Of a stretch of DNA of 64,000 nucleotides, positions 7,944 through 28,063 are shown in pieces. The position numbers and the translations under genes are program-made. The stretch spans positions 2,560,001 through 2,624,000 of the forward strand of contig NZ_CP156082.1 of the NCBI RefSeq assembly GCF_039830145.1, read 5' to 3'. The notes under the pieces were generated by a model that saw only the letters and a program-made list of their open reading frames with translations, made no database searches and was not told where the DNA came from. This DNA comes from Croceibacterium sp. TMG7-5b_MA50. GTDB taxonomy: Bacteria; Pseudomonadota; Alphaproteobacteria; Sphingomonadales; Sphingomonadaceae. Each line of letters opens with the position of its first letter. Within the stretch, counting starts at the first letter, position 1.

Positions 7944-8807
7944 TCAGGGGCGAAAGCCCGCCAGCAGCAGCGCCCCGTCCAGCGGATCGCCCTCCGGCTC
8001 GCTCAGCCGCGCGACGGTACGGGCGCGCAGCCATGGGCGCATGCGCGGGGCCAGGCCGCCGACCAGCGCGCAGGCCGGTGCGCCGCGGGCGAAGATGGTG
8101 TCGATGAACCGTTCCAGGTGGCTTGCCGCCTCCTCCACGATGGCGCGCGCATTGGGATCGCCCGCTTCCGCATGGTCCATCACCAGCGGGGCAAAGGCGC
8201 CGTAATCGCGCGGGGTCGCGCCATCCATCCAGGCGATCGCCTGCGCAGCATCGTGGTTCCAGCGCTCGCTGACCGCCAGGCTCAGCTCCGTGGCGCGGGT
8301 GCGCCCGTCCAGGGCCCGCAGCGCGTGGCGCATGGCCGACAGACCCAGCGCCGCGCCGCTCCCCTCGTCGGAGATGGGGAAGCCGTATCCGCCCAGCGTG
8401 AAATCCTCACCACCGACGCGCAGCTGCACCGCGCTGCCGGTGCCTACGATCAGGATCGCCCCGTCGCGCCCGCCATGCGCGCCCAGATTGGCGATCAGCG
8501 CGTCGGTGGCGAAGGCGATGCTGGCAAAGCCGAAGGGCAGCGCGGCCAGTTCCGCCCGCACGTCCGCCCGGCCGAGCCCGGCGATGCCCATGCCGGCGCG
8601 TACCTCCCCGCGCTGCCCGGCCGTCACGCCCGCCTGCGCCAGCGCCTGCCCGGTGATGTCCAGCAGCCGGGCGTGCAGCGCATCCGCGCCGATGCTGGCA
8701 TTGGCGGTGCCGTGCGCCTGTGCGCTGCCGATCACCGCGCCGCCCGCATCCACCAGCCGCGCGCGACAATTGCTGCCCCCCGCGTCGACACCCAGGTAGA
8801 AGGTCAT
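7944..8807 (-). CDS. BadF/BadG-type sugar kinase (GlcNAc/MurNAc kinase candidate)
   Basis: A 287-residue ASKHA-fold kinase. The N-terminal phosphate loop GVDAGGSNCRARL and the second loop IVGTGSAVQLRVGG are clear, as is EGSGAALG. BadF-type members phosphorylate N-acetylglucosamine, glucosamine or, in clostridial MurK, N-acetylmuramic acid. It is transcribed away from murQ, whose substrate is MurNAc-6-phosphate, so a MurK-like role supplying that substrate is a reasonable inference. AAGGTGG lies just before ATG 8807, which decides the start. Plain GlcNAc kinase activity is the main alternative. Confidence 0.8.
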   Translation of the reverse strand: MTFYLGVDAGGSNCRARLVDAGGAVIGSAQAHGTANASIGADALHARLLDITGQALAQAGVTAGQRGEVRAGMGIAGLGRADVRAELAALPFGFASIAFATDALIANLGAHGGRDGAILIVGTGSAVQLRVGGEDFTLGGYGFPISDEGSGAALGLSAMRHALRALDGRTRATELSLAVSERWNHDAAQAIAWMDGATPRDYGAFAPLVMDHAEAGDPNARAIVEEAASHLERFIDTIFARGAPACALVGGLAPRMRPWLRARTVARLSEPEGDPLDGALLLAGFRP

Positions 8808-8852
8808 GTGCCACCTTTCCGTCAGCCAGTGAGGCGCGATACCAGCCCGGCA

Positions 8853-8864
8853 TGACAAATGTCA
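8853..8864. promoter_or_regulatory. inverted repeat TGACA-AA-TGTCA in the kinase/murQ divergent region
   Basis: A perfect 5-bp inverted repeat with a 2-base centre lies between two divergently transcribed cell-wall sugar genes, where a shared regulator would bind. No regulator gene lies next to it. Confidence 0.35.
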
Positions 8865-8888
8865 GCGGAGCCCGCAGATGGCCCATGC

Positions 8889-8907: not shown

Positions 8908-8947
8908 CGGTGGCGTGCGCGGGTGGCTGCGATACACAGGAGGCGCG

Positions 8948-9835
8948 ATGAACACCGAAGCGTGCGACCCCCGCTACCGCGAGCTGGAACAATGGCCGAC
9001 CGCGCAGGCGATTGCCGCCATGTGGGAAGGGCAATTGGCGGCCGTGGCCGCGATCGGCCCGGCCGTGCCCGCGATCGCGGCGGCGGCGGAAGATGCCGCC
9101 ATGCGGCTGGGCCGCCACGATGCGGGCCGGCTGGTCTATGCGGGCGCGGGCACATCCGCCCGGCTGGCGGTGCTCGACGGGACGGAGCTGGGCCCGACCT
9201 TCAGCTGGCCGGCGGCGCGGGTGGCATACCTGCCGGCGGGCGGCATGGCGGCGGTGACGCAGGCGGTCGAGGGGGCGGAGGACGACGTGGCGGCGGCGGG
9301 CGCGGCGGTGGCGGCGGCGCGGATCGGCCCCGTCGACGTGGTGGTTGCGGTCGCCGCCAGCGGCCGCACGCCGTTCACCTGCGCCATTGTGCAGGCCGCG
9401 CGGGCGATGGGCGCGCTGACGATCGCCATCGCCAACAGCCCCGACACTCCGCTGCTGGCCGGTGCCGACCACCCGCTGTGCGCCCCTACCGGGGCGGAGG
9501 TGCTGGCCGGATCGACCCGGATGAAGGCGGGCACCGCGCAGAAGGCGGTGCTGAACCTGCTGTCCACCGCCATCATGCTGCGGCTGGGGCGGGTCCATCG
9601 CGGGCGGATGGTCGCGCTGCGCGTCGCCAATGCCAAGCTGGCGGCGCGCGCCTTGCGGCTGGTGCAGGATCTCGCCGGGCTGGACGCGCGGGAGGCGGAG
9701 CGGGCGCTGGCTCTGGCCGATGGCGACGTGCGCCTGGCGCTGCTGGTCGCCCGCGGCCTCGACCCTGATGGCGCCCGCGCGGCGCTGGCGGAGGCGGAGG
9801 GCGACGTGGGCCGCGTCCTGCGGACCGGCGCATGA
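8948..9835 (+). CDS. murQ: N-acetylmuramic acid 6-phosphate etherase
   Basis: This 295-residue SIS-domain enzyme cleaves the lactyl ether of MurNAc-6-phosphate to give GlcNAc-6-phosphate and D-lactate in the cytoplasm. Visible motifs are YAGAGTSARLAVLDGTEL followed by GPTF (SIS sugar-phosphate loop and catalytic Glu region), AVAASGRTPF, and EVLAGSTRMKAGTAQK, which is diagnostic for MurQ. The family GTSGRLG reads GTSARLA here. AGGAGG precedes ATG 8948. It is the first gene of a six-gene operon; ampG starts within its stop codon (ATGA). Confidence 0.93.
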   Translation: MNTEACDPRYRELEQWPTAQAIAAMWEGQLAAVAAIGPAVPAIAAAAEDAAMRLGRHDAGRLVYAGAGTSARLAVLDGTELGPTFSWPAARVAYLPAGGMAAVTQAVEGAEDDVAAAGAAVAAARIGPVDVVVAVAASGRTPFTCAIVQAARAMGALTIAIANSPDTPLLAGADHPLCAPTGAEVLAGSTRMKAGTAQKAVLNLLSTAIMLRLGRVHRGRMVALRVANAKLAARALRLVQDLAGLDAREAERALALADGDVRLALLVARGLDPDGARAALAEAEGDVGRVLRTGA

Positions 9836-11280
9836 CCACGCTGCCGCGCCGGGTGCTGGCGCTGTACCTGCTGCTGGGCTTTTCCGCCGGGCTGCCGTTC
9901 TACATGTTCAATGCCGTGCTGCTGCTGCGCCTGTCGCGGCACGGGGTGGATATCGTGACGATCGGCTTCTTCGCCTGGATCGCGCTGCTGCCGACCTTCA
10001 AGTTCGCCTGGGCCCCGCTGCTGGAACGCTGGGGCGTGCCGGGCTTCGACGCGTTCTGGGGCCGGCGGCGCGGCTGGATCATGCTGGCGCAGCTGGGCAT
10101 CACGGCCAGCATGGTGGCGATGGCCTTCACCGCAGACGATAGCAGCCTGCCGCTGACCGCCCTGTTCGCCACGCTGCTGGCGTTCTGGACCACCACGCTG
10201 GAGGTCGCCGCCGATGGCTGGCGGATCGAACTGGCCCCCACGGCGGAAGGCCAGGGACCGCTCGTCGCCGCGAATCTGTGGGGATACCGCAGCGCCATGG
10301 TCGCGGCGGGCAGCGGCGCGGTGCTGGTGGCGGCTTGGGCCGACTGGACCGCCGCCTATCTGGTGATCGCCGTGGCGGCCTTTGTGCCCTTCCCCGTGCT
10401 GGCCGCGATGCGAGGGGAGCCGGATGCGCCGATCGGTCGGCTGCCGGCGCTGATCGGCGGGTTGCTGGCGAGCGCGGCGATCCTGCTGGCGAGTGCCGCC
10501 GTCGCCGCGCTGACAGGCGCGGGGCTGCTGCGCGCCGCCACTGCCGCCGGGATCGGCGCGGGCAGCAATATCACGCCGGTCGTGCTGGCGGTGTGCCTGC
10601 TGCCCTTCGTGGCGCTGGCGCTCGCCCTGCCGCGCATCCGCCGCCTGCCGCGCGATGCGGACGAACGGATGAACGGCTGGATCGCCCCCTATGTGGAGCT
10701 GTTCTGGCGGCACGGCTACCGCGTGCTGGTGCTGCTCGCCTTCGTGTCGGTGTATCGCATGGGGGACGTGCTGGCGCTGACCCTGTCGCACCCCTTGTGG
10801 AACGATCGCGGTTACTCGCTGGCGCAGATCGGCGTGGCCGATGGCGTGGTGTCGCTGCTCGCCAGCATGGCCGGCGTCGCGCTGGGCGGCTGGGCGGCGG
10901 CGCGGTTGCGGCTGGGCCTGGCGCTGCTGCTGGGCGCGATCGTGGCGGGCTTGGCGAATTTCGGCTTCGTCTGGCAGACATGGCAGCCGCCCGCCGGCTG
11001 GGTGCTGTATCTGGTGGCGGCGGCGGACCAGTTCGGCAACGGCATGGCCGGCGCGGTGTTCGTGGTGTTCCTGTCGCTGCAGGTCAGCGCGAAGTACCCG
11101 GCGGCGCAATACGCCTTCCTGTCGGGTTTCGCCTTCCTGCTGCCGCGCCTGCTGGCGGGCGCATCGGGCGCGATCAGCCAGAGCATCGGCTATGACGGGT
11201 TCTTCGCGCTGGCGGGCGGTGTCACGCTGGCGGCGGTCCTGTTCCTGCCGTTCCTCCATACCGGTAGGCAGGTCGAATGA
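9832..11280 (+). CDS. ampG: AmpG-like muropeptide permease (MFS)
   Basis: This 482-residue polytopic MFS protein has about twelve to fourteen helices. The N-terminal LYLLLGFSAGLPFYMFNAVL, the KFAWAPLLERW segment and FWGRRRGWIM match AmpG permeases, which import anhydro-muropeptides from the periplasm. Translation is coupled to murQ through an ATGA overlap, and the next gene is coupled the same way, so muropeptide import and MurNAc-6P cleavage are made together. The exact substrate (disaccharide peptide or free sugar) is not decided by sequence. Confidence 0.85.
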   Translation: MTTLPRRVLALYLLLGFSAGLPFYMFNAVLLLRLSRHGVDIVTIGFFAWIALLPTFKFAWAPLLERWGVPGFDAFWGRRRGWIMLAQLGITASMVAMAFTADDSSLPLTALFATLLAFWTTTLEVAADGWRIELAPTAEGQGPLVAANLWGYRSAMVAAGSGAVLVAAWADWTAAYLVIAVAAFVPFPVLAAMRGEPDAPIGRLPALIGGLLASAAILLASAAVAALTGAGLLRAATAAGIGAGSNITPVVLAVCLLPFVALALALPRIRRLPRDADERMNGWIAPYVELFWRHGYRVLVLLAFVSVYRMGDVLALTLSHPLWNDRGYSLAQIGVADGVVSLLASMAGVALGGWAAARLRLGLALLLGAIVAGLANFGFVWQTWQPPAGWVLYLVAAADQFGNGMAGAVFVVFLSLQVSAKYPAAQYAFLSGFAFLLPRLLAGASGAISQSIGYDGFFALAGGVTLAAVLFLPFLHTGRQVE

Positions 11281-12302
11281 TGGAGCAGGTGGTGGAGGCC
11301 GGCTTCGCCCCGGCGGCGGCGCGGGTGGCGGCAGGCCGCATTCCCGGCGCGGTGCTGGGGGTGGTGACGGCGGATGGCGCGAAGGCGGTTCGGCTGGCTG
11401 GCATGGCCGCGCTGGAGCCGGTGCCGGAGGTCCTGACCCGCGATCACTGGTTCGATCTCGCCAGCGTCAGCAAGGTGATCGCCACGACCACGATGGTGCT
11501 GCACCTGGCGGAGCAATGGCAGCTCGACCTCGACCGCCCGCTGACCGACGCCATTCCCGATCTGCGGCAATATGACGTGGCGAACGCGGCGGAGCGCCGG
11601 CTGACCTTCCGCGATTGCCTGGCGCACCGCACGCATCTGCCCGCGGTGGAGCCGATCTACACCTATGGCGATGATCCCGCACGGCTGCGCGCCTTCGTGC
11701 TGCAGCGCGAATGGCGTGCCGGTCCGGCGGTCTATTCCGACATCAACTTCATCCTGCTGGGCATCGCGGTGGAGCGGATCACCGGCGCGCCCCTGAGCGA
11801 CTGGCCGCTGGGGGCGGGTCTGCAATACGGCCCCGTCACGGCACCCGCCGTCGCCACCGAACATTGCCATTGGCGCGGGCGGGTGATGCGGGGCGAGGTG
11901 CATGACGAGAACGCCTGGGCGCTGGGCGGCGCGCCGGGCCATGCCGGGCTGTTCGGCACGGTGGACGGTGTGCTGGACTGGGCGGCGGCGCTGCTGCGCG
12001 GGGAGGTGCTGGGACCGGAAGGGCAGGCGGCGATCCGCACGCCCGTCCACGGTGATCGAACCTGCGGCTGGGAACGCGCCTTTTCCGGCTGGCACGGCGG
12101 CGAGGCGTGCAGTGCGGAGACGATCGGCCATACCGGCTTCACCGGCACCGGCCTGTGGATCGACTGGCAGCGCGGCCTCGCCTGGACGCTGCTGACCAAC
12201 CGCGTGCACCCCACGCGCCATGCCGACAGCGGCATCTTCGACCTCAGGCCTGCCGTGGGTGACGCGGTGGTGCGGGCGTTTGACCAGCCGTTGGGGGCAT
12301 AG
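11277..12302 (+). CDS. class C beta-lactamase-fold serine hydrolase
   Basis: This 341-residue penicillin-binding-type hydrolase has SVSK (Ser63/Lys66), a YSD motif (Tyr154) and HTG in place of the usual KTG late in the chain. No signal peptide is present, which argues against a periplasmic AmpC-type resistance enzyme. Lying between ampG and a peptidase gene with a 4-nt overlap, it more likely acts in the cytoplasm on imported peptidoglycan peptides or esters. That role is inference; no substrate can be read from the sequence. Confidence 0.78.
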   Translation: MMEQVVEAGFAPAAARVAAGRIPGAVLGVVTADGAKAVRLAGMAALEPVPEVLTRDHWFDLASVSKVIATTTMVLHLAEQWQLDLDRPLTDAIPDLRQYDVANAAERRLTFRDCLAHRTHLPAVEPIYTYGDDPARLRAFVLQREWRAGPAVYSDINFILLGIAVERITGAPLSDWPLGAGLQYGPVTAPAVATEHCHWRGRVMRGEVHDENAWALGGAPGHAGLFGTVDGVLDWAAALLRGEVLGPEGQAAIRTPVHGDRTCGWERAFSGWHGGEACSAETIGHTGFTGTGLWIDWQRGLAWTLLTNRVHPTRHADSGIFDLRPAVGDAVVRAFDQPLGA

Positions 12303-12357
12303 CCCGATGGCATGGCGCGCTTGCACCGGGCGTCCCTCGCCCTAGTCTGCGGCGCCG

Positions 12358-14403
12358 ATGCGTTCCTTCCTGCTGCTCCTCGCCGCCGTGCTGCTGTCGC
12401 CGGCCCACGCCCTTGCGCAGAGTTCCGCTGAAGCCGCCGCCACCGATCTGCTGGCCCGGCACATGGCCGCGCCGTTTGCCGGCGGTCTGGTCGGCGCGGA
12501 CGACGCGCCGGTCTTCGCCTGGGTGGAGAACCGGGGCGGCGCGCGCAACGTGCTGGTGGCGACACCCGGGCAGGCGGCGCGCGCGGTGACCGCCTATACC
12601 GGGGACGAGGGGATCGAGATTTCGGGCGTGGCGCTCAGTCCCGATGGCCGGCGCGTCGCCTTCGTGCGCGGGGGCGATGCGGAATGGCCGGGGCGCAGCG
12701 CGCCCAATACCGGCCTGTTGCCGATCGCGCCGCGCCCCACCGTCTGGCTGGTGCCGGCCGCCGGGGGCGATCCGGTGCGGCTGGGCGAGGGCCATGCACC
12801 CGTGTTCAGCGCCGATGGCCGACAGGTGGCGTGGGCCAGCGGCGGGACGGCGTGGCTGCATGATGGCGCGGAGGCACGACGGATCGCGCAACTGCCAGGC
12901 AGCGTGGACGACCTGTCCTTCAGCCCCGACGGAACCCGCCTGCTGCTGCGCGATGTCCGTGGCGGGCACGCGCTGGTCGGCGTGCTGCCGCTGGATGCCG
13001 GCTCGCTGAACGGGGGGCCGCTGGTCTATGCGACGGCGGCGCTGGCGTACCAGGGTGATCCGGTGTGGTCGCCCGATGGCCGGCACTTCGCCTTTATCCA
13101 GTTCCGTGAGCCACCCGGCGACGATCCGAGCGCGGCCGGCTGGTGGTCCGTCCGCGTCGCCGATGCCGCCACCGGCGCGGTGCGGACCGTCTGGTCGGCG
13201 GCGGGCGGCGAAGGCGCGCGGTTCTACGGCACGCGCGGGCAGAACCTGTACTGGACCGCGAATGGCACGCTGCTATTCTCGTCGGAGGCGAGCGGCTTCC
13301 TGCATGTGCTGGCGGTACCGGCGGCGGGCGGGACGGCGCGAGACCTGACGCCTGATGCCGGCGAGGTGGAGCATTTCCTGCCCGCCGCCGACGCCCTGAT
13401 CTATAGCGCGGGCGGTGGCGATCCCGACGGGCGGCAGGTGTGGCGCGTGCCGCTGACGGGCGGCACGGCACGGCGAATGACCCCGCCGGAGCAGCTCGCC
13501 TTCATGCCCGTGGCGGGCGGCGACACGCTGGCAGCCCTGGCCGCCGACTGGGACAGCCCGGTCCATCCCGTGCTGGTGGAGGGCATGGCGCCGCTTTCCG
13601 CCGCGTTGGACCTGCCGGCCATGGTGGAGCCGGAGATCGTCACCTACGAGGCGGCCGATGGCGTCGCCGTCCATGCGCAATTGTTCCGCGCGGCAGGCGA
13701 GGGACAGCGCCCGGCGCTGGTGTTCGTGCATGGCGGTCCGCGGCGGCAGATGCTGCCGGGCTTCCACCCGTATTACTATTACCACAACGCCTACCTGATG
13801 AACCAGGCGCTGGCCCGTGCCGGGTACCACGTCCTGTCGGTCAATTATCGCAGCGGCACCAATTATGGCCGCGCTTTCCGGGAGGCGCCGGAGACCGGGC
13901 GCGGCGGCGCAGCCGAGTACCGCGACGTGCTGGCCGGTGGGCGCTGGCTGGGGGCGCAGGGCTTCGTCGACCCCGACAGGATCGGCATCTGGGGCGGCAG
14001 CTGGGGCGGGTACCTGACCGCGCTGGCCCTGGCGCGCGACAGCGACCTGTTCGCCGCCGGGGTGGACCTGCACGGCGTCCACACCCTGCTGCGTCCCGCG
14101 CCGACCGATGTCGCGCCGGCAGAGGCGGAGCGGGCGCGGCAATTGCAGTGGGACAGTTCGCCGATGGCGGCGCTCGACCGCTGGCGCTCCCCCGTGCTGC
14201 TGGTCCATGGCGATGACGATGCCAACGTGCCGTTCAGCCAGTCGCTGCTGCTGGCGCGCGAGCTGCACGCGCGCGGCGTGCCGTTCGAGGAGCTGGCCTG
14301 GCCGAACGAGCGGCACGACTTCTTCCGCAACGATCACTGGCTGGCGACCTATCGCGCCAGCATCGACTTCCTGGACCGGCATCTGAAAGGGCCCGCACGG
14401 TGA
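12358..14403 (+). CDS. prolyl oligopeptidase-family (S9) exported peptidase
   Basis: The protein has 681 residues with a signal peptide (MRSFLLLLAAVLLSPAHALAQ). Residues about 40-420 form a WD-like propeller with several SPDG repeats. The C-terminal alpha/beta hydrolase domain has Ser548 in GGSWGGY, an Asp in GDDDANVPF (619-621) and His653 in ERHDFF. S9 enzymes cleave short peptides after Pro or other residues, and some act on acyl-amino acids. It lies 55 nt after the serine hydrolase and overlaps the amidohydrolase start, so it belongs to the operon and probably trims peptides in the periplasm. Confidence 0.87.
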   Translation: MRSFLLLLAAVLLSPAHALAQSSAEAAATDLLARHMAAPFAGGLVGADDAPVFAWVENRGGARNVLVATPGQAARAVTAYTGDEGIEISGVALSPDGRRVAFVRGGDAEWPGRSAPNTGLLPIAPRPTVWLVPAAGGDPVRLGEGHAPVFSADGRQVAWASGGTAWLHDGAEARRIAQLPGSVDDLSFSPDGTRLLLRDVRGGHALVGVLPLDAGSLNGGPLVYATAALAYQGDPVWSPDGRHFAFIQFREPPGDDPSAAGWWSVRVADAATGAVRTVWSAAGGEGARFYGTRGQNLYWTANGTLLFSSEASGFLHVLAVPAAGGTARDLTPDAGEVEHFLPAADALIYSAGGGDPDGRQVWRVPLTGGTARRMTPPEQLAFMPVAGGDTLAALAADWDSPVHPVLVEGMAPLSAALDLPAMVEPEIVTYEAADGVAVHAQLFRAAGEGQRPALVFVHGGPRRQMLPGFHPYYYYHNAYLMNQALARAGYHVLSVNYRSGTNYGRAFREAPETGRGGAAEYRDVLAGGRWLGAQGFVDPDRIGIWGGSWGGYLTALALARDSDLFAAGVDLHGVHTLLRPAPTDVAPAEAERARQLQWDSSPMAALDRWRSPVLLVHGDDDANVPFSQSLLLARELHARGVPFEELAWPNERHDFFRNDHWLATYRASIDFLDRHLKGPAR

Positions 14404-16238: not shown

Positions 16239-17659
16239 TGCGCCGGTTGCTGCTGGTCGCCGCGTTGCTGCCGCTGCCGGCGCTGGCGCAGGCACCCCTG
16301 ACGCAGGAGGTGGCGGCGATCCTGGGGGAGGCGCCCGCCGGCACCCGCTTTGGCCTGCTGGTGGAGACGCAGGCGGGGGAGGAGATCGTGGCGGTGTCGC
16401 CCGATAACCGGTTCGTGCCGGCATCCAACACCAAGCTGTTCACCACGCTGGGCGCCTATCCCGTGCTGGCGGAGCTGCAGGCGGCGGCGCGGGGCACGGC
16501 GGTGCGGCTGGTGCCCGCCGGCGACGGCATGGTGGACGTGGTGCTGGTGGGCCATGGCGATCCAGCGCTGTCCAGTGCGCCCGGTTGCACCGTGCAATGC
16601 CTCACCACCCTGGCCGATGCGGTGGCCGGGGAGATGGACGGCGCAACGCGGCGAGTGCGCCATGTGGTGGGTGACGACAGCTGGTACCCGGACGAGCGGT
16701 GGCCTTCCGGCATGAGCTGGAACAATATCCCCAGCCGTTCCGGCACCGCGACCAGCGCGCTGACGCTGGACGACAACGAGGCGTTGCTGACCATCACACC
16801 CGGCGCGGCGGGCGAGGCGGCGACCGTCGAGGGCAGCGGGTACTACACGATCGACAACCGCGTGCGGACGGTGCCGGGCAGCGCGGAGGCGGTGGCGTTC
16901 GAGCGCCTGCCGTTCGACCGGGTGTTGCGGCTGAGCGGTACGATCGGTGCCGAAAGCGGCCCGGTCACGCTGCGCGGCGGGATCGACGATCCGGCGCATC
17001 ATGCCGCCTGGCACCTCGCCCGCCTGCTGCGCCAGCGCGGCGTGGCGATCGCGGGGGAGGTGCAGGCGCGGCACCTGCCGGCGGAGGCGGCGGACGCGCA
17101 GGCGCCGGAAGAAGCATCGCTGCTGGAACTGCCGGCATCCCCCGTGACGGAGGATGTGGTGGTCATCAACAAGGTCAGCCAAAACCTCCATGCCGAATTG
17201 CTGCTGCGTCGGCTGGGCCGGCTGGCGGCCAGCGGGTCGGTGGCGGACGGGCAGGCTGCGCTGCATGCCACACTGGACGAGCCAGCTAAGGGTGCCGGCT
17301 GGTACCTGGCCGACGGGTCCGGCATGTCGAACTACAACCGGGTCACGCCGCGCGCCGTCGTGGCGCTGCTGCACTGGGCGGGGGCGCAGCCCTGGGGGGA
17401 GGCGTGGCGGGCCAGCCTGCCGGTCGCGGGGCAGGACGGCACCTTGCGCAGCCGCTTCGCCGCAACGCCGCTGGCCGGGCGGCTGTGGGCCAAGACCGGA
17501 TCGCTGAACGCCGCGCGCGCGCTCAGTGGCACGATGCAGGCGGCGAGTGGGCGGGTGCTGGTGTTCTCAGCCTTCGCCAACGACATGCCGCCAGGCGGCG
17601 ACGCGGCGGCGACCGCCGTGCTGGACCGCGCGCTGCTGGCGATCGCCGCCGCGAACTGA
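16238..17659 (+). CDS. dacB: D-alanyl-D-alanine carboxypeptidase/endopeptidase (PBP4 type)
   Basis: The protein has 473 residues with a signal peptide ending PALAQA. The three penicilloyl-transferase motifs are intact: SNTK (Ser63/Lys66), SGMSNYN (SxN) and AKTGS (KTG). A PBP4-type insertion lies between motifs 1 and 2, including SWNNIPS near Trp-rich 160. It trims D-Ala from stem peptides or opens D-Ala-mDAP cross-links in the periplasm, releasing material the upstream permease could import. The start overlaps the amidohydrolase stop (TGATG), making it the last gene of the murQ operon. Confidence 0.9.
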   Translation: MRRLLLVAALLPLPALAQAPLTQEVAAILGEAPAGTRFGLLVETQAGEEIVAVSPDNRFVPASNTKLFTTLGAYPVLAELQAAARGTAVRLVPAGDGMVDVVLVGHGDPALSSAPGCTVQCLTTLADAVAGEMDGATRRVRHVVGDDSWYPDERWPSGMSWNNIPSRSGTATSALTLDDNEALLTITPGAAGEAATVEGSGYYTIDNRVRTVPGSAEAVAFERLPFDRVLRLSGTIGAESGPVTLRGGIDDPAHHAAWHLARLLRQRGVAIAGEVQARHLPAEAADAQAPEEASLLELPASPVTEDVVVINKVSQNLHAELLLRRLGRLAASGSVADGQAALHATLDEPAKGAGWYLADGSGMSNYNRVTPRAVVALLHWAGAQPWGEAWRASLPVAGQDGTLRSRFAATPLAGRLWAKTGSLNAARALSGTMQAASGRVLVFSAFANDMPPGGDAAATAVLDRALLAIAAAN

Positions 17660-17779
17660 CCGTTCCGCTCCTGCGTATCATAGCGGGGGGTTATGGCATG
17701 GCCCGCCGCTCGCCCGAGCGACGTTGAACTTTATGCGCAGGGTTTATGGCTCATCCCGCCATCACGCCCGGCGGTTCTA

Positions 17780-20784: not shown

Positions 20785-22109
20785 GCCGCCACGGCGGGCT
20801 GTGCCGGGGTTCCCTGAGGAATCCCGGCCGGCAGCATGCCGTTGCGCCGCGCGACGATCAGCGGCACCAGCGCCTGCCCCGCGACGTTCACCGCGGTGCG
20901 ACCCATGTCGAGAATCGGATCGATCGCCAGCAGCAGGCCGACACCTTCCAGCGGCAGGCCCAGCGTGGACAGCGTCAGGCTGAGCATCACCACCGCACCG
21001 GTCAGCCCGGCGGTTGCGGCGGAGCCGAGCACGGCGACCAGCACGATCAGCCCGTAATCGACCGGCGCCAGCGCGATGCCGTAGAACTGCGCCACGAAGA
21101 TCGCCGCCACCGCCGGATAGATCGCGGCACAGCCGTCCATCTTGGTGGTGGAGCCCAACGGCACGGCAAAGGCGGCATAGGCGGCGGGAACGCCCAGACC
21201 CTGTTCCGTCACGCTCTGCGTCACGGGCAGCGTGCCGACGGAGGAGCGGGAGACGAAGCCGAGCTGGATCGCCGGCCACGCCGCACGGAAGAAGGCGGTG
21301 GGCGAGAGGCCGTTCATGCGCAGCAGCAGCGGGTAGACCACGCCGATCACCAGCGCGAGGCCGAGATAGACCGCCAGCACGAACGAACCGAGCGAGCCCA
21401 GCGCATCCCAGCCATAGCGCGCGATCGCATCGCCGATCAGCGCGGCCGTGCCGATCGGCGTCAGCCGGATGACCCAGAACAGCAGCCGGCGGAAGACCGC
21501 GAGGGCGGAGGCGTTGAAGGCGAGGAAGCCCTCTCCCGCCGGCCCGACACGCACGGCGGCGGCGCCAATGGCGACGGCGATCACGATCAGTTGCAGCACA
21601 TTGAAGGACAGGGCGGTCGCCGGCGGGTCCCCTTCGATCAGGGTCGTCGTGGCGGCGAGGCCCAGCGCGTTGGCGGGGACGAGACCCTGCAGGAAGGTCA
21701 GCCAGCTGCCGGTGGTGGCAGGCGCCGCGGCGCTGGCCGGATCGACCCCGGCGGTCAGACCGGGTTGCAGCACGAGGCCGAGCGCGATGCCGATGCTGAC
21801 CGCGATCAGCGCGGTCAGCGCGAACCACAGCAGCGTCTGCACCACCAGCCGCGCGGCGTTAGCGAGATCCTTCAGCGCGGCGATGGACCCGACGATGGCG
21901 GTGAACACCAGCGGTGGCACCAGCGCGCGCAGCAATTGCACAAAGATCGCGCCGATCGTGCGCAAGGCTTCGGCCAGCGCGCTGCCATCGCCGGCGGACC
22001 GGGCCACGAAGCCGAGGGCGACCCCGACCGCAAGCCCGAGCATGACCTGCACGCCGAAGGACGGCAGCCGCAGCGCGGATTGCCGGGGGGAACCTGAGGT
22101 CGGCTGCAT
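20781..22109 (-). CDS. dicarboxylate/amino acid:cation symporter (SDF family), copy 1
   Basis: About 442 residues, polytopic. SRSSVGTLPVTQS is the serine-rich re-entrant loop (HP1) and SAATAGLTGAVVMLSLTL with DPILDMGRTAVNVAGQ are the HP2/TM8 signatures of glutamate/aspartate/dicarboxylate symporters. The start at 22109 has GGAG six bases upstream; GTG 22133 and ATG 22121 are in-frame alternatives. It lies downstream of a D-aminoacylase gene, separated by an inverted repeat. Glutamate or aspartate, possibly including D-forms, is the inferred cargo. Confidence 0.85.
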   Translation of the reverse strand: MQPTSGSPRQSALRLPSFGVQVMLGLAVGVALGFVARSAGDGSALAEALRTIGAIFVQLLRALVPPLVFTAIVGSIAALKDLANAARLVVQTLLWFALTALIAVSIGIALGLVLQPGLTAGVDPASAAAPATTGSWLTFLQGLVPANALGLAATTTLIEGDPPATALSFNVLQLIVIAVAIGAAAVRVGPAGEGFLAFNASALAVFRRLLFWVIRLTPIGTAALIGDAIARYGWDALGSLGSFVLAVYLGLALVIGVVYPLLLRMNGLSPTAFFRAAWPAIQLGFVSRSSVGTLPVTQSVTEQGLGVPAAYAAFAVPLGSTTKMDGCAAIYPAVAAIFVAQFYGIALAPVDYGLIVLVAVLGSAATAGLTGAVVMLSLTLSTLGLPLEGVGLLLAIDPILDMGRTAVNVAGQALVPLIVARRNGMLPAGIPQGTPAQPAVAA

Positions 22110-22162
22110 CTGTCGCTCCATCGGACCGGGCACCTTGCTACGTCCCGCATCTGCTTTCTCTA

Positions 22163-22194: not shown

Positions 22195-23787
22195 CTACGG
22201 GCAGCCGGCGGGTCGGGGGCGGAGCAGCACGCGGCCGGCGGCCGTGCCGGTCGGGTGGCTGCCGTCCACCGCCAGCACGCCGTTCACGAACAAAGCCGTC
22301 ACCCCCTTGGCAAGTTCCCGCGGGCGCACATAGTCCGCACGCGGCGCGTATTCGGCCGGATCGAACACCAGCACGTCCGCGAAGAAGCCGGGGCGCAGAT
22401 AGCCGCGTTCTGCCACCCGGTAGATGTCGGCGACGCGGCCGGTGGACTGGCGGATGAAGGTCGCAAGGTCGATCACCTGCCGCTCCACGACGTAGCGGCG
22501 GTACTTTTCCGGATAGGTCGCGAACATGCGCGGGTGGCCGTTGGAGCCGTCCGACGCCGTCACCATCCACGGCTGGCGCATCAGCAGGTCGACATCGTCC
22601 TGCCGCATGTTGAACGATGCGACGCTGGTGGCCCGCGGCATCCGCTCGCGCGTGGCGCGTTCGATGATGCGCAGCGCCGCGTCGCGCGGGTCGATACTCC
22701 ACCTGTCGGCCATCTGCTGCAACGTGCGGCCGGTCCATTCATGGCCCTCGTCCGTCAGCAGCAGCGCCTGCGCCCCGCCGCGCCGCCGCAGGTTCTCCGC
22801 CATCTCGGCGCGGATGCGCTGCGCGGTGGCGGGATCGGCCAGCCGGTCGAGCAGGGCGGCATTGCCGCCATCGACCGCCCAGCGCGGCAGCAGCGCGGCA
22901 TCGAGGCTGCTGCCGCTGGCGAGCCAGGGATACTGGTCGGCGGTCACGTCCTGCCCCGCGGCGCGCGCGGCGTCTATGCGGGCGATAACCTCGCCCGCCT
23001 GTCCCTGCACGTCCTGCCCGAGCGCCTTCAAGTGCGCGAAATGGACCGGCAGGCCCGCCTCCCGCCCGATGCGCAGCACTTCCTCCACGGAGGCCATGAG
23101 GCCGATCGTATAGCTCGATTCGTCGCGCTGATGCGTGTCGTACAGGCCCCCGCGACGGGCGGCCTCCCGCGCAACGGCGATCACCTCTTCCGTCGTGGCG
23201 AAGCTTTGCGGGGCGTAGAACAGCCCGGCGGAAAGGCCCGTCGCGCCTTCGCACATGCCTTTCGCGACGAGGGCCTGCATCTGCCGCAGTTCGGCTGCGT
23301 CGGGCGCGCCTGCATCCTGCCCCAGCACCCGTTCGCGCACCGCGCCGAAGCCGACGAACGGCACGACATTGGTGCCGATGCCCGAAGCCTGCAACTGTGC
23401 CGCGTCCTGCGCCACGTCGGGCGTACCGCCGCCATCGACGCCGATCATCACGGTCGAAACGCCCTGGTTCAGCCAGGCGGCGTTGACGCGCTGCGCCGGC
23501 TCACTCGCCCGCAGGAAGATGTCGGCGTGGGTATGCGGGTCGATGAAGCCGGGCGTGACGATCCGGCCTGCCGCCTCCATCACCCGTTCCGCCGTGCCGG
23601 GGAAGTGGGGACCGACATAGGTGATCCGATCGCCCGTAAGTGCGACGTCGCCAGTCATGGGCGCGGCGTCGCTGCCGTCGTACACGGTGCCGCCGCGGAT
23701 CAGGACGTCCGCCTGCATCGGCGGCGTCGTGCCGGCGCAGGCGGCGAGCGAAAGGGCCAGGGCGAGCAGCGGCAGGCGATGGAGCAT
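22195..23787 (-). CDS. N-acyl-D-amino-acid deacylase (D-aminoacylase), lipoprotein
   Basis: The protein has 530 residues. A lipoprotein signal (LALSLAAC, start at ATG 23787) is followed by an amidohydrolase: GFIDPHTHAD metal site, the GATGLSAGLFYAP segment, and TASDGSNGHPRMF near the C-terminal part, as in D-aminoacylases. These zinc enzymes release free D-amino acids from N-acyl-D-amino acids. A position anchored outside the cytoplasm beside D-glutamate genes fits release of D-amino acids from peptidoglycan-derived or other acylated compounds. It is transcribed divergently from the LysR gene. Confidence 0.87.
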   Translation of the reverse strand: MLHRLPLLALALSLAACAGTTPPMQADVLIRGGTVYDGSDAAPMTGDVALTGDRITYVGPHFPGTAERVMEAAGRIVTPGFIDPHTHADIFLRASEPAQRVNAAWLNQGVSTVMIGVDGGGTPDVAQDAAQLQASGIGTNVVPFVGFGAVRERVLGQDAGAPDAAELRQMQALVAKGMCEGATGLSAGLFYAPQSFATTEEVIAVAREAARRGGLYDTHQRDESSYTIGLMASVEEVLRIGREAGLPVHFAHLKALGQDVQGQAGEVIARIDAARAAGQDVTADQYPWLASGSSLDAALLPRWAVDGGNAALLDRLADPATAQRIRAEMAENLRRRGGAQALLLTDEGHEWTGRTLQQMADRWSIDPRDAALRIIERATRERMPRATSVASFNMRQDDVDLLMRQPWMVTASDGSNGHPRMFATYPEKYRRYVVERQVIDLATFIRQSTGRVADIYRVAERGYLRPGFFADVLVFDPAEYAPRADYVRPRELAKGVTALFVNGVLAVDGSHPTGTAAGRVLLRPRPAGCP

Positions 23788-23899
23788 GACGGCAGCATCG
23801 AACCGTGCCGCGCCGCCGTCCAGCGCCGCTTGCATGAATGGCGTATAGACCGCGTGCATGGCTGCGCTATGCTGCCGTTCGGGAAGGAGGGCCGCCAAC

Positions 23900-24784
23900 A
23901 TGAACCTGCGTCAGCTGGAGGTATTCCACGCGGTGTACCAGCATGGTTCGGTCAGCGCGGCGGCGCGCGCACTGGGCGTGTCGCAACCCTCCGTCACCAA
24001 GGTGCTGGCCCATGCGGAACGGGCCGCCGGGCTGACCCTGTTCGACCGGACGCGCGGCCGGCTGGTGCCGACGGAGGATGCGCGCACTCTGTTCAACGAG
24101 TTTGCCGACATCCAAGACCGGGTCCGGTCCTTGCGGCAGGCGTGCCAGACCATGCGGCAGGGGCGCGGCAATCTGCTGCGGGTGGCGGCGCTGCCGTCGC
24201 TGGGGCTGCACGCGATCCCCGATGCGGTGGCGCGCTTCATCGCCACGCGCGACGACGTGCTGTGCGACCTGCAGACGCTGCACCATGACGAGATGATCCG
24301 CCGGTTGTACGAACGCGCAACCGATATCGCCATCAGCTTCGACGTGCCGCCCGGTGCCCCCGTGGCGCATCGCGTGATCGGGGAGGGGGAGCTGGTGGTG
24401 CTGTTCCGCCCGGCCGACTGGCCTGACGCGCCAGCGCGCCTGCACCTGGCGGACCTTGCCGGCCGACGCTTCATCAGCCCGGTGCAGAGCGGCCCAGTCG
24501 GGCGGATGCTGGAAGGCGAGCTGCGCCGGCAGGACGTGGTGCTGGAGGAGGTGGTGTCCGCCCGCACATACTACATCGCGGCGGCGCTGGTGCAGGCGGG
24601 CGTGGGCATGGCGATCGTGGACAATTTCACCGCCGGCTTCTGGCACAATGCGGGGCTTGCCAGCCGGCCGCTGCAACCGGCGATCACCTTTGACATCAAT
24701 GCCGTGTCGCTGGCCGACCGGCCGCCGGGCGTGCTGGCGGCTGCGTTCCTGGACGTGCTGGCGGGCGTGCTGGAGGAACTATAA
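23900..24784 (+). CDS. LysR-family transcriptional regulator
   Basis: The protein has 294 residues. An N-terminal winged helix-turn-helix (MNLRQLEVFHAVYQHGSVSA through LGVSQPSVTKVL) is followed by a substrate-binding domain with VVLFRPADWP and VQAGVGMAIVDNF. AAGGAGG lies before ATG 23900. It is divergent from the D-aminoacylase gene and lies 77 nt before dgcN on the same strand. It is therefore the obvious regulator of the D-amino acid genes and possibly counterpart to regulators described beside dgcN-dgcA elsewhere (inference). Confidence 0.87.
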   Translation: MNLRQLEVFHAVYQHGSVSAAARALGVSQPSVTKVLAHAERAAGLTLFDRTRGRLVPTEDARTLFNEFADIQDRVRSLRQACQTMRQGRGNLLRVAALPSLGLHAIPDAVARFIATRDDVLCDLQTLHHDEMIRRLYERATDIAISFDVPPGAPVAHRVIGEGELVVLFRPADWPDAPARLHLADLAGRRFISPVQSGPVGRMLEGELRRQDVVLEEVVSARTYYIAAALVQAGVGMAIVDNFTAGFWHNAGLASRPLQPAITFDINAVSLADRPPGVLAAAFLDVLAGVLEEL

Positions 24785-24861
24785 CCTGCTGTCATGGGGG
24801 TGCGTGGGCGCGCGGAGCGGAGCGCGTTAGGGTGGCGCCCCGCTTCGAGGACCGACCGCCG

Positions 24862-25860
24862 ATGATCGCCACGCCGTACCTGCTCTATCTGGGCCATGCC
24901 GACGATCCGGTCGGCATCAAGACGTCGCGCGGATTGGCGGTGTTCCGGCCGGAGAGCTGCGTCGGCGAGTTCCGGCATGATGATTGCCCGCTGACACTGG
25001 GCCTGCCGCGCCTGTCGCTGGATGAAGCGGTGGCGGCGGGTGCGCGGACGCTGGTCCTGGGGATCGCCAATGCCGGCGGCGTGCTGGGCGATGCGCTGGT
25101 GAGGGATGCGGTGGCCGCGCTGGAGGCGGGGCTGGACGTCGCCGCCGGGCTGCACCAGCGCTTGGCGGACAATCCGCTGATCGCCGCCGCCGCCGCCCGC
25201 ACCGGGCGCCGCCTGCACGACGTGCGCGATGCGCCCGCCGGGCTGCCGGTCGGCACCGGCTACCCCCGTGCCGGGCGGCGGCTGCTGACGGTGGGAACCG
25301 ATTGTTCGGTGGGGAAGATGTATGCCAGCCTGGCGCTGGTCGCGGGGCTCCGGGCGAAGGGACTACCGGCGGATTTCCGCGCCACCGGGCAGACCGGCAT
25401 CCTGATCGCGGGCGCCGGCGTGCCGCTGGACGCCGTGGTGGCCGATTTCATCTCCGGCGCGATCGAGCAACTGGCACCGGCGCGCGATGACGGGGGCTGG
25501 GACGTGATCGAGGGGCAGGGATCGCTGTTCCATCCCTCCTTCGCCGGCGTCAGCACGGGTCTGCTGCACGGGGCGCAGGCCGGGGTGCTGGTGCTGTGCC
25601 ACGATCCCGCGCGCCCGCATGTGCGCGGCCTGCCCGGACGGGCGCTGCCGACGATCGCGGAGTGCATCGCGGCGAACCTGCAGGTGGCGCGGCTGACCAG
25701 CCCGGCGGTGCGGATGGGTGGCATCGCGCTCAACACCGTATCGCTGGACGAGGACGCCGCGAGGGCCATGTGCGCGGCGCTGGCGGAGGAGCATGGTCTG
25801 GCGTGCAGCGATCCGCACCGGTTCGGCGTGGATGATCTGATCGACGGGGTGCTGGCATGA
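24862..25860 (+). CDS. dgcN: DUF1611 protein, D-glutamate N-acetyltransferase (DgcN type)
   Basis: The protein has 332 residues. It begins MIATPYLLYLGHADD and has a P-loop-like VGTDCSVGKMYASLAL, the DUF1611 hallmark, plus EGQGSLFHPSFAGVSTGLLHG. Members next to an epimerase-like gene are known as DgcN, which acetylates D-glutamate with acetyl-CoA before racemisation. The gene pair with the following epimerase homolog (ATGA overlap) supports this call over an uncharacterised DUF1611 role. GAGGA upstream of ATG 24862 decides the start; GTG 24832 is the longer alternative. Confidence 0.78.
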   Translation: MIATPYLLYLGHADDPVGIKTSRGLAVFRPESCVGEFRHDDCPLTLGLPRLSLDEAVAAGARTLVLGIANAGGVLGDALVRDAVAALEAGLDVAAGLHQRLADNPLIAAAAARTGRRLHDVRDAPAGLPVGTGYPRAGRRLLTVGTDCSVGKMYASLALVAGLRAKGLPADFRATGQTGILIAGAGVPLDAVVADFISGAIEQLAPARDDGGWDVIEGQGSLFHPSFAGVSTGLLHGAQAGVLVLCHDPARPHVRGLPGRALPTIAECIAANLQVARLTSPAVRMGGIALNTVSLDEDAARAMCAALAEEHGLACSDPHRFGVDDLIDGVLA

Positions 25861-26834
25861 GGACCGTGCAGGCGCGGGCCGAAAGCTTCCCGCTGGCGCG
25901 GCCGTTCCGCATCAGCCGGGGCACAACGCTGACCGCCAATGTGGTGGCGGTGACGGTGACGGAGAACGGCCACACCGGCTTCGGCGAGTGTGTGCCCTAT
26001 ACCCGTTACCGCGAGACGGTGGAGAGCACGCTGGCGGCGATCGCCGGGGTGCGCGGCGCTTTGGAGGCGGGCGCCGGCCGGGCGGAGCTGCTGACGCTGC
26101 TGCCCGCGGGTGCGGCGCGCAACGCGCTCGATTGCGCGCTGTGGGATCTGGAGGCGCAAGGAGCGGGGCAGGGCCTGCTGCCGACCACGCCGATCGCCAC
26201 CGCGCTGACCGTGACGATCGACACGCCGGACAAGATGGCGGAGCAGGCGCGCGCGCTGGCGGGTGTGCCGCTCATCAAGGTGAAGCTGGACCGCGACATG
26301 ATCGCCGAGCGGCTGGCCGCGGTGCGCGGCGCCGCGCCGGGACCGCGGCTGATCGTCGATCCCAATGAAAGCTGGACAATTGCCGAGGTGGAAGGCCTGC
26401 AGGGCGTTATGCAGGAACAGCGGGTCGATCTGCTGGAACAGCCCTTGCCCGCAGGCGACGACACGGCGTTGCAGGACTATACCGGCACGATCCCGATCGC
26501 GGCGGACGAGAGTGTGCATATCGCCGCCGACCTCGCCACCCTGCCGCGCGGCTACAGCGTGGTGAACATCAAGCTGGACAAGGCGGGTGGGCTGACCGCC
26601 GCGCTGGAATTGGCCGACGCGGCGGAAGCTGCCGGCTACACGCTGATGACCGGATGCATGGTGTGCTCGTCCCTGTCGATCGCGCCCGCGATGCTGCCGG
26701 CGGCGCGCAGCCGGTTCGTCGATCTGGACGGGCCGGTCTGGCTGCTGCAGGACCGGCCTGGCGGCGTGACCGTGACGGACGGCATGCTGCACCCGCCTGC
26801 TCCCGGTTTCTGGGGCGGCGGGCAGCCGCGCTGA
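25857..26834 (+). CDS. dgcA: enolase-superfamily epimerase, N-acetyl-D-glutamate racemase (DgcA type)
   Basis: The protein has 325 residues of the muconate-lactonising/dipeptide epimerase group. IKVKLD holds the catalytic KxK lysines, VDPNESW, LLEQPLP and ADESVH supply the metal ligands, and VNIKLDKAGGL the second catalytic lysine. Classical members epimerise L-Ala-D/L-Glu. Those coupled to DUF1611 act as N-acetyl-D-glutamate racemases (DgcA). The 4-nt overlap with dgcN favours the second role, giving N-acetyl-L-glutamate for ordinary catabolism. L-Ala-D-Glu epimerase activity in murein peptide recycling remains the alternative. Confidence 0.8.
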   Translation: MRTVQARAESFPLARPFRISRGTTLTANVVAVTVTENGHTGFGECVPYTRYRETVESTLAAIAGVRGALEAGAGRAELLTLLPAGAARNALDCALWDLEAQGAGQGLLPTTPIATALTVTIDTPDKMAEQARALAGVPLIKVKLDRDMIAERLAAVRGAAPGPRLIVDPNESWTIAEVEGLQGVMQEQRVDLLEQPLPAGDDTALQDYTGTIPIAADESVHIAADLATLPRGYSVVNIKLDKAGGLTAALELADAAEAAGYTLMTGCMVCSSLSIAPAMLPAARSRFVDLDGPVWLLQDRPGGVTVTDGMLHPPAPGFWGGGQPR

Positions 26835-26845
26835 GGAGATTGCGA

Positions 26846-28063
26846 TTGCCCCATCTGCTCCGCCGCTGGCTCGCCGTTCCACTGTGGCAGCGGGTGGTGG
26901 GGGCGTTGCTGGCGGGCGTCGCGCTGGGTCTGCTGTGGCCGGCGGGCGCGACCGGCATCGCGGTGCTGGGCGAGCTGTTCGTGCGGCTGATCCGGATGCT
27001 GGTGGTCCCCGTGGTGTTCGTCAGCCTGTCGGCCGGCGTCGCGGCACTCGGCGATCCGAAACGGCTGGGGTCGGTCGGCGGGCGGACGGTCGCGCTGTTC
27101 GCCTTCACCACCCTGTGCGCGGTCGCCATCGGCATGGCGCTGGGCCTGCTGGTGCAGCCGGGGGCAGGCGCGGCGATCGGCAGCGCGACCGACTTCGCGT
27201 TGGGCACGCCGGTGTCGGTGCATGACCAGCTGGTGGGCATCGTGCCGCTGAACATCGTCGCCGCGCTGATGGATGGCGACATGCTGGCGATCATCTTCTT
27301 CGCGGTGCTGCTGGGCTGCGGGATCGTGCTGGCGGGCGATGAAGGCCGGCCGCTGGCGGCGGTGCTGGAATCGGCGGGGCGGGTGCTGTTCCGCCTGGTC
27401 GGCGTGGTGATGGAGCTGACGCCATTCGGCGTGCTGGCGCTGATCGCCAATGCCGTGGCCGCGAACGGCGTGGCGGTGTTCGCCAACATCGCGCTGCTGG
27501 CGCTATGCGTGGCGGCGGGAGTGCTGGCGCAGATCGTGGCGGTCCACCTGCCGCTGCTGCGGCTGGTCGCGCGGCGCGGCCTCGTGCGCTTCTTCCGCGA
27601 TGCGGCCGATGCGCTGGTGGTGGCGTTCTCCACGGCATCCAGCGCGGCCACGTTGCCCGTGGCATTGCGAATTGCGGTCGAGGACATGCGCTTGCTGCCG
27701 GCGGTGGCGGGCACGGTGCTGCCGGTGGGGGCGAGCATCGGCAAGGACGGAACGGCGATGTATGTCGGGCTGCTGGCTGTGTTCAGCCTGCAGGCGCTGG
27801 GATACCAGCCGGATCTGCTGACGCTGCTGCTGGTGCTGGGCACCGGCGCGCTGGCGGCGTTCGGCACTGCGCCGATCCCGTCCGCGTCGCTGTTCATGCT
27901 GGCCGCGGTGTTGAGTGCGGTCGGCGTTCCGGGGGAGCAGACCGCGCTGGTCGTCGGCTTCGTTCTGCCGTTCGACCGGCTGCTGGACATGACGCGCACC
28001 GTGGCGAGCGCCAACGCCAACCTGACGGTGACCGCTTGCGTGGCGCGGCTGGACGCCGGTTAG
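26846..28063 (+). CDS. dicarboxylate/amino acid:cation symporter (SDF family), copy 2
   Basis: The protein has 405 residues. STASSAATLPVAL is the HP1 serine motif, ASIGKDGTAMYVG and FDRLLDMTRTVASANANLT the TM7/TM8 signatures. No ATG fits: TTG at 26846 follows GAGGAG by about 7 bases and is the likely start (TTG 26840 is also in frame). It begins 11 nt after dgcA, so it is probably the third gene of a dgcN-dgcA-transporter operon and may import D-glutamate (inference). Confidence 0.83.
   Translation: MPHLLRRWLAVPLWQRVVGALLAGVALGLLWPAGATGIAVLGELFVRLIRMLVVPVVFVSLSAGVAALGDPKRLGSVGGRTVALFAFTTLCAVAIGMALGLLVQPGAGAAIGSATDFALGTPVSVHDQLVGIVPLNIVAALMDGDMLAIIFFAVLLGCGIVLAGDEGRPLAAVLESAGRVLFRLVGVVMELTPFGVLALIANAVAANGVAVFANIALLALCVAAGVLAQIVAVHLPLLRLVARRGLVRFFRDAADALVVAFSTASSAATLPVALRIAVEDMRLLPAVAGTVLPVGASIGKDGTAMYVGLLAVFSLQALGYQPDLLTLLLVLGTGALAAFGTAPIPSASLFMLAAVLSAVGVPGEQTALVVGFVLPFDRLLDMTRTVASANANLTVTACVARLDAG

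Follow-up and report, generated by a model that had tools for sequence, protein, structure and literature searches.

Much organic carbon and nitrogen is stored in peptidoglycan, and its use as food, beyond the recycling of a cell's own wall, is known in few organisms. The subject of this analysis is a gene island at positions 7944 to 28063 of a 64,000-nucleotide stretch of DNA (the window) from Croceibacterium sp. TMG7-5b_MA50, a member of the Sphingomonadaceae whose 3.24-Mb genome consists of two contigs. The island joins candidate genes for the use of N-acetylmuramic acid (MurNAc), stem peptides, and D-glutamate (D-Glu), and it probably represents, at a rough probability of 0.7, a dedicated peptidoglycan utilization locus that is separate from the recycling of the cell's own wall.

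In Tannerella forsythia, the ampG-ybbC-murTKQ operon resembles the island in that AmpG, a MurNAc transporter, a MurNAc kinase, and MurQ are encoded in one transcript for scavenged wall fragments, but no D-Glu catabolism (DgcN, DgcA, LysR, SDF), PBP4, TonB-dependent receptor, or PF00144 protein is named in the part of the report that describes it (PMC5388701). MurQ is accompanied by a serine hydrolase, as in the island, in the Bacillus subtilis murQRP-amiE-nagZ cluster, which contains the amidase AmiE (PMC5061867), and in Escherichia coli murQP-yfeW, the third gene of which, yfeW, encodes a relative of the PF00144 protein of the island. Both systems differ from the island in that MurNAc is imported by a phosphotransferase system and in that no D-Glu gene is among those named or shown in the pertinent parts of the sources, which also place AmiE, unlike the island PF00144 protein, outside the cell. 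The MurNAc gene groups of Microvirga and Deinococcus share the BadF-type kinase, PF00144, MurQ, and GntR types and differ from the island by the presence of AnmK (and of NagZ in Deinococcus), with no DgcN or DgcA among the matches.

The D-Glu side of the island has its counterpart in the DgcR-DgcN-DgcA pathway of Pseudoalteromonas CF6-2 and marine Rhodobacteraceae, which involves the same gene types and whose enzymes carry, in the excerpt that covers them, the numbers EC 2.3.1.312 and 5.1.1.25 (PMC11747546). In CF6-2, genes for a TonB receptor, a D-aminoacylase-like protein (45% identical to that of the island), and an M14 carboxypeptidase are grouped with dgcR, dgcN, and dgcA, whereas no MurQ, AmpG-like, or PF00144 gene is annotated in the 25-kb stretch. 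According to the summary of its growth tests, this strain uses peptidoglycan as the sole carbon and nitrogen source and D-Glu as the sole nitrogen source (PMC6962226), which is, by analogy, the nearest experimental anchor for the island. Finally, the mlr microcystin cluster of sphingomonads, as described in brief, combines the serine hydrolase MlrB, the MFS-type MlrD, and the D-aminoacylase-like MlrF for a D-Glu-containing peptide (PMC12474180, PMC6256522). Compared by description only, MlrB, a 59-kDa protein carrying a signal peptide, and MlrD, which has a PTR2 domain, are unlike the island proteins; the identification of the permease and PF00144 protein with MlrD and MlrB, or a derivation of mlr from the island, was dropped as unsupported, not disproved.

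Within the open-license literature searched, dgcN and murQ occur together in no paper, and no description of the island was found, judged by the titles and abstract openings of the papers listed, which is not proof of absence. The individual enzyme kinds are known; the combined locus appears to be a new combination of them.

Gene content of the island

All of the gene families listed in an earlier note on this DNA, which had been made from the sequence alone, were detected in the island by Pfam and NCBIfam scans. The genes are listed below; some of the starts were chosen by eye.

7944..8807, minus strand: BadF-family amino-sugar kinase, candidate MurNAc/N-acetylglucosamine (GlcNAc) kinase (PF01869, 99.6 bits)
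8948..9835, plus strand: MurQ-type protein, probable MurNAc-6-phosphate etherase (NF003915, a subfamily model, 314 bits; cutoff, 168)
9832..11280, plus strand: AmpG-like MFS permease, candidate muropeptide importer (TIGR00901, 321 bits)
11277..12302, plus strand: cytoplasmic PF00144 serine hydrolase, candidate MurNAc-L-Ala amidase (PF00144, 111 bits)
12358..14403, plus strand: S9 peptidase, signal-like N terminus by eye (PF00326, 135.6 bits)
14400..16238, plus strand: amidohydrolase (Xaa-Pro dipeptidase-like), signal-like N terminus by eye (PF01979, 71.6 bits)
16238..17659, plus strand: PBP4-type D-Ala-D-Ala carboxypeptidase/endopeptidase (TIGR00666, 184 bits, above the cutoff of 107.8)
17746..20784, plus strand: TonB-dependent receptor (PF00593, PF07715)
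20781..22133, minus strand: SDF symporter 1 (PF00375, 311.8 bits)
22195..23787, minus strand: D-aminoacylase-superfamily lipoprotein, candidate releaser of D-Glu from peptides (PF07969; PDB 1m7j, 211 bits)
23900..24784, plus strand: LysR regulator, DgcR-like (PF03466, PF00126)
24862..25860, plus strand: DgcN, predicted D-Glu N-acetyltransferase, start by eye (NF041892, 495 bits, above the cutoff of 480)
25857..26834, plus strand: DgcA, predicted N-acetyl-D-Glu racemase (NF042940, 414 bits, above the cutoff of 400)
26840..28063, plus strand: SDF symporter 2, start approximate (PF00375, 318 bits)

The earlier note had placed both symporters ahead of the D-Glu block; in fact, they flank it, although the families themselves are as named there. 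Start/stop overlaps of 1 to 4 bases join MurQ to the permease, the permease to the PF00144 gene, S9 to the amidohydrolase, the amidohydrolase to PBP4, and DgcN to DgcA (4 bases), so that multigene transcripts are likely. The G+C content of the island blocks (0.675 to 0.739) is not clearly distinct from that of the remaining window (0.632 to 0.720).

Several assignments are bounded by family cutoffs. MurQ falls below two other ones (239.7 against 302 for the equivalog model TIGR00274 and 252 against 255 for NF009222). The kinase does not reach the cutoff of the NagK model NF046058 (212 against 370 bits); its nearest PDB chains include 1zc6, a probable GlcNAc kinase (118 bits), and 8zo3, a MurNAc/GlcNAc kinase (49 bits), and in relatives it adjoins NagA, NagB-like, or MurQ genes. 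The amidohydrolase scores 84.6 bits against NF051886, far under the cutoff of 500. The likely start of the TonB receptor lies, by eye, at about 17935, with a signal-like stretch following M64.

Island genes are linked across Sphingomonadaceae

Linkage was assessed in 99 genomes evenly drawn from Sphingomonadaceae (94 genera). MurQ-search matches weaker than E = 1e-30 were not counted, being read as a group, not scanned singly, as SIS-domain proteins such as GlmS, and DgcN was called close at ≥61% identity, a limit under which 8 of the 23 DgcN-positive genomes fall. MurQ was found in 11 genomes, close DgcN in 15, and the AmpG-like permease in 9. Close DgcN is present in 8 of the 9 permease genomes (one-sided Fisher p = 3e-7), and co-occurrence was also observed for MurQ with DgcN (p = 0.011) and with the permease (p = 0.008); the genomes being related, these values are a guide only. 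The permease and DgcN lie within 21 kb of each other in 7 of the 9 genomes, the other two being G091, where the distance is 1.3 Mb, and G027, which has no DgcN match. All five genomes that encode both MurQ and close DgcN hold them 2 to 16 kb apart, in shuffled orders. The linkage of the island genes is therefore not chance.

In a wider set, MurQ was identified in 29 of 397 genomes, 19 of which also hold DgcN: within 30 kb in 11, apart in 4 (G245, G155, G210, and G379; at 179 kb on the same contig or far off on another), and with contig ends interrupting the stretch in 4 (G183, G226, G302, and G383). The permease (≥59% identity) is encoded in 17 of these 29 genomes, and DgcN is present in all 17, compared to 2 of the other 12.

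Stretches of about 4 to 80 kb around MurQ and DgcN were searched with the window proteins, revealing many arrangements of one gene set, for example, in Sphingobium, Sphingopyxis, Sphingomonas, Novosphingobium, Tsuneonella, and Polymorphobacter. The gene order comparison across Sphingomonadales that the earlier note had proposed thus shows the same set recurring in many genera, in shuffled order, and the linkage is stronger and wider than was visible from one sequence. The PF00144 gene served as the anchor of a further set of loci (the best 80 of 575 confirmed), taken with 10-kb flanks, so that presence counts are lower bounds. Among the 60 loci of the Sphingomonadales type, 50 hold at least 20 kb; at least 45 of these contain the permease, at least 39 PBP4, and at least 42 a D-Glu-side gene (D-aminoacylase-like, DgcN, or DgcA). 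The sugar limb, that is, the kinase and MurQ, is detachable and often absent.

Three kinds of recurrent partners were not seen in the window island: a penicillin amidase gene (16 of 22 genomes examined), NagA and an SIS protein beside the kinase and MurQ and often between both (15 of 22), and a GntR/UTRA regulator (7 of 22). The 371-kb plasmid p-A-Sy of Sphingobium yanoikuyae (L246) carries both limbs, with most of the set, within 24 kb: SDF, dgcA, dgcN, LysR, D-aminoacylase-like, TonB, penicillin acylase, dacB, two serine hydrolases, the permease, GntR, MurQ, SIS, nagA, dld, and the BadF kinase. The S9 and amidohydrolase genes were not among the matches in this plasmid stretch. An annotated tyrosine recombinase is encoded near the plasmid island, an observation showing that the set can sit on a secondary replicon. 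A diaminopimelate decarboxylase-like gene is located beside the island in five loci (L174, L177, L180, L207, and L218), where it may handle diaminopimelate from the stem peptide or be a chance neighbor; such a LysA-like enzyme was rejected as an island part because it is too rare (4 of 22 genomes and 5 of 81 loci).

The D-Glu side

The LysR gene adjoins dgcN, and its product is 37% identical to the annotated DgcR of Pseudoalteromonas CF6-2, as would befit a DgcR-type regulator. DgcA scores 322 bits against the L-Ala-D/L-Glu epimerase model and does not reach its cutoff of 343. In an alignment with the epimerase 1jpd, the DLDG motif and what we take to be the catalytic lysine pattern are kept in both proteins; these motifs do not discriminate, and the assignment of DgcA as an L-Ala-D/L-Glu epimerase was rejected because the family cutoffs favor DgcA. 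A dipeptide epimerase activity of DgcA is nonetheless possible. The D-aminoacylase-like protein is an apparent lipoprotein, with the lipobox LAAC read by eye. DgcN homologs are numerous in some genomes (eleven in G253 and seven in G085), perhaps as paralogs for other D-amino acids.

An operator-like motif recurs at island promoters

The divergent promoters between the D-aminoacylase-like and LysR genes were aligned (18 stretches, of which L129 and L169 are the same record), yielding the motif ATAACC-N4-GGCAT. This motif has the T-N11-A form that is typical of LysR boxes. In the 60 island loci, which include the window and the loci whose promoters defined the motif, 53 sites with at most one mismatch were identified, compared to a mean of 8.3 and a maximum of 14 in 20 shuffles. 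Eleven of these 53 belong to the motif-defining promoter class; most of the others precede the permease, S9, PBP4, or a penicillin amidase/TonB pair. Five sites were counted in 18 control loci, 17 of them from Microvirga and one from an alphaproteobacterial metagenome-assembled genome (shuffle mean, 2.1; maximum, 5). Six genomes with MurQ only, represented by 12 stretches, contained 1 (shuffle mean, 3.1; maximum, 7).

Genome-wide, 21 exact copies of the motif were counted in 25 genomes with island genes and 10 in 25 genomes that lack the permease, compared to 2 and 5, respectively, for the reversed pattern. Of the 21 copies, 12 lie inside island stretches, including 6 at promoters that were not used for the definition of the motif. 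For the 6 sites, a rough Poisson estimate, assuming 0.4 background matches per genome and islands that make up 0.75% of the genome, is 5e-11. Exact copies lie inside the islands of two genomes of the same genus as the window's (G183 and G226).

The following sites were located in the window island, given in order.

8839..8853, plus strand: operator-like site, 2 mismatches, between the kinase and MurQ
12299..12313, plus strand: operator-like site, 1 mismatch, before S9
17680..17694, minus strand: operator-like site, 2 mismatches, before TonB
17733..17747, minus strand: operator-like site, 2 mismatches, before TonB
17764..17778, minus strand: operator-like site, 2 mismatches, before the likely TonB start
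23845..23859, plus strand: weak operator-like site, 3 mismatches, between the D-aminoacylase-like gene and LysR, at the position of the strong site in relatives
24781..24795, plus strand: operator-like site, 1 mismatch, before DgcN

At up to two mismatches, a threshold chosen after the one-mismatch matches had been seen, the window island contains 7 sites, which is within the reach of 100 shuffles of its 20 kb (mean, 2.6; highest count, 8); an equal number, 7, was counted in the remaining 43.9 kb of the window. Of the 7 island sites, however, 6 fall in intergenic DNA, which accounts for 3.4% of the island (binomial p = 1e-8); in 300 shuffles of the intergenic DNA, the mean was 0.17 sites and the highest count was 2. 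One each of the six lies before the kinase/MurQ pair, S9, and DgcN, and three lie before TonB; the count takes 17893 as the TonB start, and with the start at 17746, one TonB site is coding and another straddles the start.

The PF00144 hydrolase as a candidate hinge between sugar and peptide

The PF00144 gene is the most informative one of the island. Its product is, in the simplest reading, a cytoplasmic MurNAc-L-Ala (muropeptide) amidase that would join the sugar limb to the peptide/D-Glu limb, because its relatives adjoin AnmK, NagZ, or MurQ in Microvirga and Deinococcus. The Microvirga proteins are 61 to 65% identical to it and occur with MurQ in 17 of 17 loci, in 16 of them as the next gene after AnmK; at a limit of ≥40%, these 17 loci yielded no match to DgcN, DgcA, the D-aminoacylase-like protein, or the permease. 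Deinococcus sp. KNUC1210 encodes a 49% identical protein, whose gene is flanked by those for AnmK and NagZ and lies upstream of genes for an annotated BadF protein and MurQ. The Mariluticola relative (57% identity) precedes AnmK, and a DgcA gene lies about 6 kb away. E. coli YfeW is 27% identical to the island protein over 303 residues, and the VHDE and GHTG motifs are common to both. The PF00144 fold is therefore found inside murQ/anmK/nagZ gene groups, the setting of an AmiE-type amidase, AmiE being presumably a PF00144 protein as well. On a plasmid of Mariluticola halotolerans (L248), a compact alternative group consists of DgcA, GntR, an oligopeptide-type ABC transporter, PF00144, and AnmK, the ABC transporter taking the place of AmpG in import.

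A serious, although less likely, alternative is that the locus serves the same end and the PF00144 protein is a DL-peptidase of the stem peptide or an O-acetyl-MurNAc esterase. Its PDB relatives include the Lip3 chain 9sn1, a DL-peptidase by its title, and a D-amino acid amidase. With a structure model of middling quality (11-row alignment; mean predicted local distance difference test score, 68), Foldseek returned esterases, lovastatin-type enzymes, beta-lactamases, and D-amino acid amidase at similar scores, so that function is not discriminated. The position between AnmK and NagZ or next to MurQ in Deinococcus and Microvirga, however, fits an amidase best, as does, judging from the section on that cluster, the place of AmiE in the B. 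subtilis murQ cluster (PMC5061867).

A probable dedicated catabolic locus and its alternatives

The claim of the earlier note that one locus handles the sugar, stem peptide, and D-amino acid parts of murein is largely right in that these parts recur together in many genera, with an operator-like motif at several promoters. It finds no support in that form for the MurNAc limb, which is separable, several genomes having the core and no MurQ. The island is better split into a recurrent peptide/D-Glu core and a detachable sugar limb, which in the best reading are joined by the permease and the amidase candidate and perhaps by one LysR regulon.

A number of observations weigh against a single wall utilization locus. 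In many genomes, the core lacks the kinase and MurQ or has them at a distance, with MurQ in only 9 (a lower bound) of the 50 Sphingomonadales-type loci of at least 20 kb, and a Dld homolog was found in only 5 of 21 genomes searched (next to the kinase in two, G351 and G112). Neither a muramidase nor a lytic transglycosylase was recognized among the island genes. The permease remains below the TIGR00901 cutoff of 350 and is therefore named AmpG-like. Measured against what we take to be the metal-binding residues of the D-aminoacylase 1m7j (HxH, Cys, His, His, Asp), the D-aminoacylase-like protein retains all except Cys: an Asp takes the place of this ligand in the window protein and in each of the 23 other homologs covering the site (1 of 24 does not); the protein is therefore not classed as a D-aminoacylase, the label that the earlier note had given it. 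As to the motif, no island promoter carries a site with at most one mismatch in 24 of the 60 loci, and such sites occur on both the D-Glu and muropeptide sides in only 4, which counts against a tight regulon; the genome of the window has no exact copy, and its own D-aminoacylase-like/LysR promoter site has 3 mismatches.

Another explanation is that the core (permease, PF00144, PBP4, TonB, D-aminoacylase-like, LysR, DgcN, DgcA, and SDF) is directed at substrates other than peptidoglycan (other D-amino-acid peptides or N-acyl-D-amino acids) and that the kinase and MurQ are a separate amino-sugar module, attached by chance in some lineages. The core genes without MurQ in G047, G012, G039, and G042, the first three of which also lack NagA over the cutoff, are consistent with this explanation, as is the recurrent penicillin amidase gene. 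Nevertheless, it is improbable: an AmpG-like permease and PBP4 belong to the core, outside Sphingomonadales, AnmK, NagZ, and MurQ genes accompany the PF00144 gene, and MurQ, the permease, and PF00144 overlap as one run in the window.

The recycling of the cell's own wall turnover products would be an obvious role for AmpG, MurQ, and NagA types, which are recycling enzymes in E. coli. We consider this role quite improbable for the island. The genome encodes elsewhere a second AmpG homolog, 28 to 32% identical to the island permease (in its neighborhood, L244, few genes are callable from base composition), and an Amidase_2 (AmpD-type) protein. AnmK, found in 4 of 15 genomes tested, has no match in this genome; self-made anhydro-MurNAc would therefore lack a known route to MurQ, and MurNAc-6-phosphate should come from the BadF kinase. 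These three features favor a dedicated catabolic set over self-recycling. Furthermore, the permease is present in only 9 of the 99 family genomes, a plasmid copy of the set exists in S. yanoikuyae, and D-Glu catabolism would destroy what recycling saves. Recycling without MurQ, via AmgK and MurU, is described for Caulobacter in the summary of one report (PMC13046382). Lastly, although each module stands alone in some genomes, a set of chance neighbors without a shared role is hardly credible, being contradicted already by the linkage counts (permease-DgcN, p = 3e-7) and further by clustering that is kept despite shuffled order and by the recurrent motif.

Proposed pathway and implications

In the peptidoglycan utilization locus that we favor, the TonB receptor would take up wall fragments, possibly of foreign origin. 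In the periplasm, PBP4, the S9 peptidase, the amidohydrolase, and the D-aminoacylase-like lipoprotein would trim the stem peptide and free D-alanine and D-Glu, and the SDF symporters would import acidic amino acids including D-Glu. Muropeptides would enter through the AmpG-like permease, the cytoplasmic PF00144 hydrolase would cut the peptide off MurNAc, and the BadF kinase would produce MurNAc-6-phosphate, which MurQ would split. MurQ yields GlcNAc-6-phosphate and D-lactate, so that a D-lactate dehydrogenase fits it; the genome encodes a Dld homolog on contig 2 and NagA outside the island, directly after an open reading frame of the SIS type by eye. DgcN and DgcA would convert D-Glu to N-acetyl-L-Glu, and the DgcR-like LysR may bind the T-N11-A operator and switch the set on in response to D-Glu. 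A bolder version, which we hold only tentatively, is a mobile, coregulated locus in which D-Glu, a mark of the bacterial wall, is the inducer that opens the uptake and digestion of whole muropeptides and a new serine amidase (PF00144) replaces AmpD/AmiE as the hinge between sugar and peptide.

If this pathway is correct, wall consumption would become genetically testable in ordinary environmental sphingomonads, in which one locus, marked by a recurrent operator-like motif and present also as a plasmid copy, would cover sugar, peptide, and D-Glu. This island type occurs in soil and water bacteria. It would also provide a candidate for a new amidase family and a possible switch that senses D-Glu. 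For annotation, proteins labeled "serine hydrolase," "amidohydrolase," or "penicillin acylase" in such a setting may belong to one wall-degrading program.

Neighboring genes in the window

Upstream of the island, at positions 1421 to 3402, a papain-type C1 protease with DUF346 repeats is followed by a chagasin-type I42 inhibitor domain, forming an enzyme-inhibitor neighbor pair. Directly after the island, positions 29315 to 42934 hold a gene transfer agent-like cluster that encodes terminase, portal, and capsid proteins, a DUF2460 tail protein with a TIM-barrel sheath domain, and phiJL001 Gp84-type and Rcc01698-like proteins.

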